In this document: positions 16,126 to 19,244 of the stretch, piece by piece
Layout of the letters: the number at the start of each line of letters is the position of its first letter
How positions within the stretch are numbered: position 1 is the first letter of the stretch
Assembly (NCBI GenBank): GCA_003602645.1
Contig: QQSI01000044.1
Span: 1 to 33,266 of the forward strand
Origin: Candidatus Poseidoniales archaeon
GTDB lineage: Archaea > Thermoplasmatota > Poseidoniia > Poseidoniales > Poseidoniaceae
Reading direction: 5' to 3'
DNA: 33,266 nucleotides
Program-made: the position numbers and the translations under genes
Notes under the pieces: model-generated
Databases searched by the model: none
What the model saw: only the letters and a program-made list of their open reading frames with translations
What the model was told of the DNA's origin: nothing

Positions 16126-16560
16126 TCACCAATCAGAAGTGAAGGCATTTGGATTGACAACCTTCTCTGATTCACGGGTCCAAATTGTGCCAACAGGGCT
16201 GAGTGCATTGCTACCACCATAGATGTCGGCGTATGGATCGATCTCTTCTGGTTCAAGATTGCGTTGCATGTAAGCTTCGACTCGCTCTCGCAAGTCTGGC
16301 TTAAATTTCCAATAGTGGATGCGCCACTCTCGACCGTCCCAAAGGGTGGTCTCTTCTGACTCAGTGGTCAACAAATCGTAATCTTGGAACATGTAAAACA
16401 AGTTTCGATCGGTAGGTTCGAGGGCGTTATCGATGATTCTGTTGTAAAAGCCAAAGAAACCAAGAGCGTGTTCTGCCATGCCCTGTGCGACTTCTGCGTC
16501 CATCTCCAGATCGATGTGTTGTTGGATTGCCTTTGTTAGTTCTGCAAGTGTCATCGTCAT
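16126..16560 (-). CDS. Hypothetical protein
   Basis: ORF with start MTMTLAELTKAIQQHIDLEMDAEVAQ; no secure family assignment. Confidence 0.6.
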   Translation of the reverse strand: MTMTLAELTKAIQQHIDLEMDAEVAQGMAEHALGFFGFYNRIIDNALEPTDRNLFYMFQDYDLLTTESEETTLWDGREWRIHYWKFKPDLRERVEAYMQRNLEPEEIDPYADIYGGSNALSPVGTIWTRESEKVVNPNAFTSDW

Positions 16561-16666
16561 GTCATCACCCCGTCGAAGGAAATTGCGCACTGGCGCGCAC
16601 ATTCTCCCGCAGACACTCTATTGTATTGTCATCCGACCCATATAGACCCATCGGCCAAAAACGATG

Positions 16667-16831: not shown

Positions 16832-17851
16832 GTGAGCGAGACTTTCGTCGAGGGGAATTTTCTGGGCTTGCCCGAATCTGCTGGCCCTGTTGACCTCGTC
16901 GTGCTGCCGCTGCCGTACGAATTGACGACCTCGTACGGTCAAGGGACTGCAGATGGCCCCGCTGCATGCATTGCTGCAAGTGCGCAGGTGGAGGTGTTCG
17001 ACGCAGCTCTCAATGAGGATTTGCCAGCAAACCATTCGATACACACCGCCCCTGCATGGGAAGGAAACGGCCCGACGCTTGCCTCGCAACTCGATGAACT
17101 TGGTAGTTACCTCGCTCCATGGTGCAAAGGAGATGTCTTCCCCCTTGCCCTTGGCGGAGAACACGGTATCTTACCTCCGTTCATGTGGGCTCTACGCCAT
17201 CATCCTGCCATCGACGGTGATCTTGGCAAGTTGACCGTTGTGCAAATCGATGCCCACGCTGATCTTCGTGCAGAACTGGATGGTGAGGCATTTTCACATG
17301 CCTGTGCTGCAGCACGGTCGCTTGACATGGGCGTGGGACGATTGCTCCAAGTGGGTGTTCGGGCGTACGCCAAGGAAGAAGCGGAGTTAATTCAAACCGA
17401 CGAACGCATCACGACCTTCTTCGCAAAAGACACACAACATCCGACCACAGGGGATGCGACTTGGGAGCGGTGGATTGACCTGCTTTCACGATTGACCGGA
17501 CCAGTCCATTTGACCGTCGACATCGATGGCTTGGATGCGAGTTTAGTCCCTGCTACTGGCACGCCGGTGCCGGGGGGATTGTCGTTCTGGCAAGCAATCC
17601 AAACCATCGAAGCAGTGTTTGAGGCACCAGAAGCGGTTGTCATCAGCGCTGATGTCAATGAAATAGCAACCAACGAACATTCTCCACTCACGGAATTCAC
17701 AGCGGCAATGTTGGCAACAAAAACAGCAGCGAGTCATTTCAAGGCCCGCAAAGAAGGACGCTGGAAAGCCATGACAGACGCCCAAGGAAATGGGCGCAAT
17801 GGAGAACAATGCACATATTTCTCAACGATGATAAACAAAATCGAACAATAA
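16832..17851 (+). CDS. speB: Agmatinase / ureohydrolase family protein
   Basis: LGGEHGI, QIDAHADLR, DIDGLDASLVPATGTPVPGGLS metal-binding motifs; GTG start. Confidence 0.88.
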   Translation: MSETFVEGNFLGLPESAGPVDLVVLPLPYELTTSYGQGTADGPAACIAASAQVEVFDAALNEDLPANHSIHTAPAWEGNGPTLASQLDELGSYLAPWCKGDVFPLALGGEHGILPPFMWALRHHPAIDGDLGKLTVVQIDAHADLRAELDGEAFSHACAAARSLDMGVGRLLQVGVRAYAKEEAELIQTDERITTFFAKDTQHPTTGDATWERWIDLLSRLTGPVHLTVDIDGLDASLVPATGTPVPGGLSFWQAIQTIEAVFEAPEAVVISADVNEIATNEHSPLTEFTAAMLATKTAASHFKARKEGRWKAMTDAQGNGRNGEQCTYFSTMINKIEQ

Positions 17852-17897
17852 ATTCAACACTCAACGACGGTGCCATCGCAATTAAAGGAGGGGTTCA

Positions 17898-18287
17898 ATG
17901 GCAGAAAGTCAAGCACACGGCAAGCATGTCTTCCTCGATTTCGTAGGCTATGAATCACAGTCTGAAGCAGATGGGGCATGGATGCTTGATTTGCTAGAAC
18001 GAGCGGTCGAACAAAGCGAGGCACGGAACGTTCACGCCCATGTTGCCCAATTCGATGGTTCAGTCTCACCGATCGGTTTTGCCGCCGTCGTCTTATTGGA
18101 CGAGAGCCACGTCACTGCCCATTGCTATTCGGAAAAAGGCTGGTTGGCGATTGATTGCTTCACCTGTGGAGAAAGTGACCCGAGCGTGATCGCAGATTTT
18201 ATCCAAACAGAACTCAAACAATTCATGCCCAACCTTGACCTCAAGCAACGTAGAGTCGAAGATCGCTTCTTGCACGGAGAGGTCTAA
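17898..18287 (+). CDS. S-adenosylmethionine decarboxylase (SpeD)-family pyruvoyl enzyme; substrate uncertain
   Basis: GKHVFLDFVGYE, DESHVTAHCYSEKGWLAIDCFTCG: cleavage Ser, catalytic His and Cys retained. Upstream AAAGGAGG Shine-Dalgarno-like sequence at about 17884. Confidence 0.85.
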   Translation: MAESQAHGKHVFLDFVGYESQSEADGAWMLDLLERAVEQSEARNVHAHVAQFDGSVSPIGFAAVVLLDESHVTAHCYSEKGWLAIDCFTCGESDPSVIADFIQTELKQFMPNLDLKQRRVEDRFLHGEV

Positions 18288-19244
18288 ATGTCCATCCGAG
18301 CCTTTGTGGACGAACATTATCGGCATTTCAATGCGGGTGCGCTGGCTTCAGCAGCTCGTTCATTGACAGCCTTTCTTGAGCAAGGCGGTCGAGTCTTCAT
18401 CACGCTTGCAGGAGCGATGAGCACAGCAGAATTGGGTCGTAGTTTAGCCCCAATGATTCGAGCAGGTCATGTAGCCGGTGTTTCTTGTACCGGAGCCAAC
18501 CTTGAGGAAGATGTGTTCAATCTTGTCGCTCACGACTCATATGAGCGAATCGAGGATTGGCGGAGCCTGTCTGCGGCGGATGATGCAGCATTGTTAGAAC
18601 GTGGCTTGAACAGAGTCACCGACACGTGCATACCCGAGGAGCAAGCGTTTCGCCGAATTGAAGCCCACATGCTCAATGCTTGGCAAACAGCGTCAGAAGC
18701 GGGAGAATCTCATGCCCCGCATCAGTACTTCTACAGCATGCTTCGATCTGGTGCACTGGAGTCTGAATTCGAGGCAGACCCTGAAGCATCTTGGCTCCTC
18801 GAGGCTGCTAAAATTAACCTCCCTCTATTTGTGCCTGGATGGGAAGACTCGACGATGGGGAACATCTTCGCAGCACGTTGTATTGAAGGAGTCATCAACC
18901 AAGAATGCCTCAAGGGCGGTATCGATTACATGGTTGAACTTGCCAAGTGGTACGAAGCCTCAACCACCCAACTCGCTTTTCTCCAAATTGGCGGCGGAAT
19001 TGCCGGTGATTTCCCAATCTGTGTTGTGCCAATGCTAAATCAGGACCTCGAACGAAACGCGCCACTCTGGTCATGGTTCTGTCAAATCAGTGAGTCTTCA
19101 CCCTCCTATGGCGGCTACTCTGGTGCGCCTCCGAATGAAAAAATCACATGGGGTAAAATTGCTCAAGAAACTCCAAAATTCGTGATTGAAAGCGATGCAA
19201 GTATAGTGGCTCCGTTGCTGTTCAATTATGTCTTGGACCTGTGA
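18288..19244 (+). CDS. Deoxyhypusine synthase-like protein (bacterial-type DHS homolog; possibly homospermidine synthase)
   Basis: SCTGANLEEDVFNLVAHDSY, LFVPGWEDSTMGNIFA, QIGGGIAGDFPICVVPML, SGAPPNEKITWGKI (Lys equivalent to the DHS catalytic Lys). ATG directly abuts the SpeD stop. Confidence 0.88.
   Translation: MSIRAFVDEHYRHFNAGALASAARSLTAFLEQGGRVFITLAGAMSTAELGRSLAPMIRAGHVAGVSCTGANLEEDVFNLVAHDSYERIEDWRSLSAADDAALLERGLNRVTDTCIPEEQAFRRIEAHMLNAWQTASEAGESHAPHQYFYSMLRSGALESEFEADPEASWLLEAAKINLPLFVPGWEDSTMGNIFAARCIEGVINQECLKGGIDYMVELAKWYEASTTQLAFLQIGGGIAGDFPICVVPMLNQDLERNAPLWSWFCQISESSPSYGGYSGAPPNEKITWGKIAQETPKFVIESDASIVAPLLFNYVLDL

Follow-up and report, generated by a model that had tools for sequence, protein, structure and literature searches.

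A compact speB-speD-speY locus of a Marine Group II archaeon probably makes homospermidine from arginine without spermidine synthase

Which polyamine does a Marine Group II archaeon make, and by what route, if it has no spermidine synthase? The group is abundant in the surface ocean. The question is raised by a stretch of 33,266 nucleotides, contig QQSI01000044.1 of a Candidatus Poseidoniales assembly (hereafter, the window), in which genes for an agmatinase-family ureohydrolase (SpeB), a SpeD-family pyruvoyl enzyme, and a DHS-family enzyme (SpeY) follow one another. We consider it probable that in this Poseidoniaceae archaeon the three genes constitute the entire polyamine pathway, running through putrescine to homospermidine. 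Such a pathway is compact and independent of both PLP and AdoMet, and we found no other in these genomes. If true, it would explain how Marine Group II lives without spermidine synthase, and it raises the question of the aminobutyl donor for aIF5A.

The pathway itself has been described before, and for this archaeal group, by Li et al. 2023 (PMC10407285), whose speB-speDA-speY clusters come from a Ca. Poseidoniales metagenome-assembled genome (MAG) and from an uncultured MGII/III euryarchaeote. Here, we add closure of the pathway across whole genomes, a separate DHS, a fusion of SpeD with SpeY, and SpeY on phage contigs.

Gene content of the locus

The source genome is a MAG of 1.76 Mb, 85% complete, whose closest named relatives are marine Candidatus Poseidoniaceae (Marine Group II). 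Open reading frames and Pfam matches bear out the original prediction of three adjacent, co-directional genes at positions 16832-19244 of the window (Table 1), and the matches to Arginase, AdoMet_dc, and DS all exceed the curated cut-offs. The speD stop does abut the start of the DHS-like gene, with TAA at 18285-18287 and ATG at 18288. Dozens of Poseidoniales genomes show these genes in the same order and on the same strand; therefore, the arrangement is not due to chance. On the other side of speB, and divergent from it, a gene for a DUF6015 protein occupies positions 16126-16602 of the minus strand.

Table 1. Features of the speB-speD-speY locus, in window positions
Feature	Position	Strand	Evidence
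speB, agmatinase-family ureohydrolase, 339 aa, GTG start	16832..17851	+	Pfam Arginase, 1.1e-44
GGAGGGG, ribosome-binding-site-like, before the SpeD ATG	17887..17893	+	Sequence
speD-family gene, probable pyruvoyl arginine decarboxylase (SpeDA), 129 aa	17898..18287	+	Pfam AdoMet_dc, 1.7e-18; proline lost; same-order homologues assayed as ADC (PMC10407285)
Ser70 codon, predicted pyruvoyl-forming residue (ESH motif); His75 and Cys90 downstream	18105..18107	+	Alignment to T. maritima AdoMetDC; invariance in ten sequences
speY, DHS-family gene, probable homospermidine synthase, 318 aa	18288..19244	+	Pfam DS, 6.3e-39; best NCBIfam model NF001980; predicted fold matches DHS
Lys290 codon, equivalent of catalytic Lys329 in human DHS	19155..19157	+	Alignment; invariant in 32 SpeY

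SpeD-family protein as a probable arginine decarboxylase

The SpeD-family protein could act on arginine or on AdoMet. Its AdoMet_dc domain carries the pyruvoyl-forming serine and the catalytic histidine and cysteine found in SpeDA (Ser70, His75, and Cys90), and all three residues are invariant in ten sequences drawn from across the order. The proline characteristic of AdoMetDC is lost, the canonical H-T-W-P-E having become H-C-Y-S-E, which is the pattern of SpeDA. We inferred the position of this proline, which separates AdoMetDC from ADC, from the legend text of PMC10407285. Considering all loci together, the AdoMetDC-type proline is missing from 53 of 54 distinct SpeD motifs. A SpeD that does bear it (WPE; L082, G085:C47) occurs in a Poseidoniaceae MAG; it is of bacterial type and probably a contaminant, and we set it aside. 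Our reading of the alignments places Ala62 of the window SpeD at Ser55 of T. maritima AdoMetDC.

The window SpeD narrowly passes the AdoMet decarboxylase equivalog TIGR03330, scoring 79.1 bits against a cut-off of 75.65. A pass is expected if SpeDA has diverged little from AdoMetDC (PMC10407285), and we judge it to be outweighed by the lost proline, the missing SpeE, and published assays. In those assays, two SpeD homologues from Poseidoniales/MGII-III (DAC51064 and AIF02979) decarboxylated arginine but not ornithine or lysine, and neither restored spermidine to E. coli BL21speD; their kcat/Km values of 64 and 180 M-1 s-1 indicate low efficiency (PMC10407285). Both come from other genomes of the same order or group, Ca. 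Poseidoniales archaeon 70165 (DAC51064) and KM3_15_H06 (AIF02979), which resemble the window in their published gene arrangement, the same clustered trio. They were chosen as candidates for the absence of SpeE (PMC10407285), and the genome studied here likewise has no match to a SpeE partner or to any other ADC or ODC. Judging from its residues and from these assayed homologues, the window SpeD is probably an arginine decarboxylase (SpeDA).

Absence of other polyamine routes

The original prediction found neither a spermidine synthase nor a classical arginine decarboxylase in the window. This holds for the whole source genome, in which SpeE (Spermine_synth), fold-III PLP decarboxylases (Orn_Arg_deC_N), PvlArgDC, and OKR_DC are all unmatched. 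Because this genome is 85% complete, the absences rest partly on its relatives. SpeE was found in none of the 20 family genomes with a completeness of 90% or more, so the conservative possibility raised at the outset, a speE gene elsewhere in the genome, is not borne out. Among 97 genomes there were just two SpeE-like matches (in G081 and G092), each limited to a short stretch and scoring 19-23 bits, and we did not accept them as SpeE. PvlArgDC was matched in 0 of 38 family genomes and nspC in 0 of 16, and OKR_DC gave no match above cut-off in 16 genomes. A single family genome of 38 matched the fold-III PLP decarboxylases (PF02784 in L134, G022:C17:499-1236); this gene represents either an acquisition or contamination, and we did not accept it as a feature of the clade.

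Of 194 genomes from the order, 181 contain AdoMet_dc itself, and almost all of these have just one copy. A congener assembled as one contig of 2.06 Mb (G011) has the same pattern of absences; therefore, the absences are not merely assembly gaps.

SpeB, SpeY, and a separate DHS

On sequence grounds, the family membership of SpeB and SpeY is sure; model scores leave their substrates unsettled, since both proteins score below the equivalog cut-offs. The metal-binding motifs of the Arginase/ureohydrolase family can be read in SpeB (GGEH, DAHAD, and DIDGLD), and its score on the TIGR01230 agmatinase model is 150.4 bits, under the cut-off of 174.3. Of 58 family genomes, 53 encode exactly one SpeB, and in the remaining five we found no copy. 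In Thalassarchaeaceae, speB often lies elsewhere than the SpeD-SpeY locus. We rejected loss of SpeB as an explanation for these loci, having found the gene elsewhere in nearly all genomes searched. In one Thalassarchaeaceae lineage without an adjacent speB, a DDAH (dimethylargininase)-like gene directly follows speY (L041:6327-7253 and L042:2943-3767), a possible link to guanidino compounds.

SpeY has the family match, the fold, and the catalytic lysine of DS proteins, with Lys290 conserved throughout the SpeY sequences compared. It scores best on NF001980, "homospermidine biosynthesis protein," with 132 bits against an equivalog cut-off of 450. Its scores on DHS models are at most 111 bits (cut-offs of at least 304), and it scores 74 bits on NF002699, the model for the 1,9-bis(guanidino)-5-azanonane synthase CdmS (cut-off 500). 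The NF001980/PRK00770 SpeY proteins, reported for Anabaena and SAR11, share the DHS fold and the catalytic lysine with the window SpeY. The sequence thus appears to fit SpeY in the broad sense of PMC10407285, as a separate subfamily outside the NF001980 equivalog. Where canonical DHS has SKHH, containing the Lys-His-His motif that includes H288 of the human enzyme, SpeY has AGDF.

Most Poseidoniaceae genomes have two DS-family genes. The second one in the source genome (L128:3631-4542) scores 361.8 bits against a DHS equivalog cut-off of 350, carries the Lys-His-His motif, and is 22% identical to SpeY. The same genome encodes aIF5A with its modification-site lysine kept (SKPGKHG). Another gene is thus available to serve as DHS, and the concern attached to the original prediction, that the DHS-like protein might be the only DHS and act on aIF5A, does not apply as judged by sequence. 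Human DHS is able to use homospermidine (stated in PMC9992855), and work on Haloferax suggests that archaea may have other donors (PMC5178350). Because we found no route to spermidine, homospermidine is the likely donor for hypusination of aIF5A.

Fusion of SpeD and SpeY in sister genera

In five Poseidoniaceae genera (g2, g5, g6, g9, and g11), the SpeD and SpeY matches share one open frame of about 430-500 aa. In the 22 genomes whose fusion frames we read, no stop separates SpeD from SpeY, the frame has an ATG start on the SpeD side, and linkers of different lengths join the two parts, which retain the pyruvoyl site and the DHS-type lysine. Counted from the ATG taken, the proteins are 424-469 aa long (L093, L096, L098, L102, L104, L105, L107, L110, L112-L120, L122-L124, L126, and L127). 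Some linkers hold internal start codons, from which an extra, separate SpeY may be made. The structure of one fusion is predicted with good confidence, at a pLDDT of 86 and a pTM of 0.77; the portion formed by SpeY matches DHS. Separate SpeD and SpeY genes were read in the window's own genus and in Thalassarchaeaceae. On the SpeY tree, the fusion requires three changes, and it may have a single origin.

Pyruvoyl cleavage of such a protein would detach the small beta chain, whereas SpeY would stay attached to the pyruvoyl alpha chain. The SpeD-SpeDC fusion proteins (PMC10407285) also join a SpeD-family domain to another polyamine enzyme; their partner is a second SpeD domain, whereas in the Poseidoniales fusion, which belongs to sister genera and not to the window, the partner is the DHS-like SpeY. 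We found no report of a SpeD-SpeY fusion in the open-access literature, and it is probably new. A natural fusion of this kind offers a direct means of deciding between agmatine and putrescine as the intermediate.

Proposed pathway and competing explanations

The SpeE-free route from arginine through agmatine and putrescine to homospermidine, as originally predicted, draws its support from the assayed ADC homologues, the absences, and the second DHS. SpeD would cleave itself between Glu69 and Ser70 to form its pyruvoyl cofactor and, as SpeDA, would convert arginine to agmatine. SpeB would convert agmatine to putrescine and urea. With NAD and an imine on Lys290, SpeY would then form homospermidine from two aminobutyl units. 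The separate canonical DHS would be left to hypusinate aIF5A, with homospermidine probably supplying the aminobutyl group. We infer the order of the SpeB and SpeY steps, and it is here that the strongest competing explanation differs. SpeY might instead couple two molecules of agmatine to caldomycin (1,9-bis(guanidino)-5-azanonane), from which SpeB would strip two ureas to leave homospermidine, with no free putrescine. There is precedent in Thermus thermophilus, where the DHS homologue CdmS (TTHA1570) and the SpeB-type ureohydrolase TtSpeBap run the steps in this order (Kobayashi et al. 2024, PMC10981699) and, as proposed here, a DHS homologue and a ureohydrolase together yield homospermidine. 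In Thermus, agmatine does not come from a neighboring SpeD-type enzyme as it would here, and the window SpeY is not close to the CdmS model. The genomic arrangement also speaks for it. Of 123 loci, some of them duplicates, 93 have SpeD and SpeY adjacent and 29 have them fused, so that 122 pair the two, and SpeB stands beside them in 96; SpeB is separable and often distant in Thalassarchaeaceae; and the partners fused in five genera are SpeD and SpeY, not SpeB. Tight pairing, a separable SpeB, and fusion together favor direct use of agmatine, and a fusion that pairs the first step with the third is odd if putrescine is the intermediate. In Poseidoniales, the SpeD-SpeY pair, which in those five genera would be a new self-cleaving, bifunctional enzyme, might conceivably pass agmatine straight to homocoupling, giving an archaeal route from arginine through agmatine and caldomycin to homospermidine that bypasses free putrescine, although we doubt it. 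Two observations weigh against agmatine coupling by the window SpeY: the SpeY model outscores the CdmS model for this protein by the bit scores given above, and in Gimesia maris, whose SpeDA belongs to the same clade, speDA adjoins speY, yet the organism uses the putrescine-making aguA/aguB (PMC10407285). Residues at which CdmS differs from human DHS are not diagnostic here. We rejected D243 and D316 of the human enzyme as a discriminator between CdmS and SpeY, because these acids are missing as well from the canonical archaeal DHS that the same genome encodes. Overall, we favor putrescine as the intermediate and regard the order through caldomycin as unlikely.

The two remaining explanations assign SpeY a part in hypusine synthesis. 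Under the more conventional one, the cluster serves ordinary spermidine and hypusine synthesis, with SpeD as an AdoMet decarboxylase, speE elsewhere, and the DHS-like protein as the hypusine enzyme. The TIGR03330 pass and the conserved catalytic lysine of the DHS-like protein fit this scheme, but the lack of SpeE in the genome and in all 20 good family genomes already contradicts it, and same-order SpeD homologues without AdoMetDC function (PMC10407285), the lost proline, and a separate DHS gene speak against it; we consider it the least likely explanation of all. SpeY could otherwise have a double role, making homospermidine and also modifying aIF5A, or it could transfer agmatine onto aIF5A for later action by SpeB, as proposed for Haloferax. 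Its membership in the DHS family would allow this, and agmatinase and aIF5A genes cluster in Euryarchaeota, for which action of the agmatinase after transfer was proposed (PMC5178350). Given that the same genome encodes a canonical DHS bearing the Lys-His-His motif, and that SpeY is without this motif and has a best model other than DHS, a double role seems very improbable.

SpeY on viral contigs

Viruses yielded no SpeY in a 2023 survey (PMC9992855), and we obtained no SpeY match in 50,697 named phage records or on the plasmids searched. In contrast to the survey, SpeY turned up in scans of IMG/VR, where 53 contigs encode it, at 41-60% identity. On one contig of 207 kb (L225), SpeY lies within 10 kb of genes for a head maturation protease, a Dda-like helicase, an endolysin, a sigma factor, and a proline-less SpeD homologue. 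At least one freshwater group of SpeY contigs looks truly phage; the other groups are less certain.

Large freshwater contigs carry SpeY and a SpeD homologue within about 3 kb of each other (L225:7808-10957 and also L222, L226, L229, L231, and L267), and the AdoMetDC proline is missing from those of their SpeD homologues that we read. Marine-looking contigs form another set (L250-L261), several of them near-identical, with SpeY 46-47% identical to that of the window; PHROGs weakly support their viral nature. On the tree, one branch with an SH-aLRT value of 97 separates SpeY of viral contigs from SpeY of Poseidoniales.
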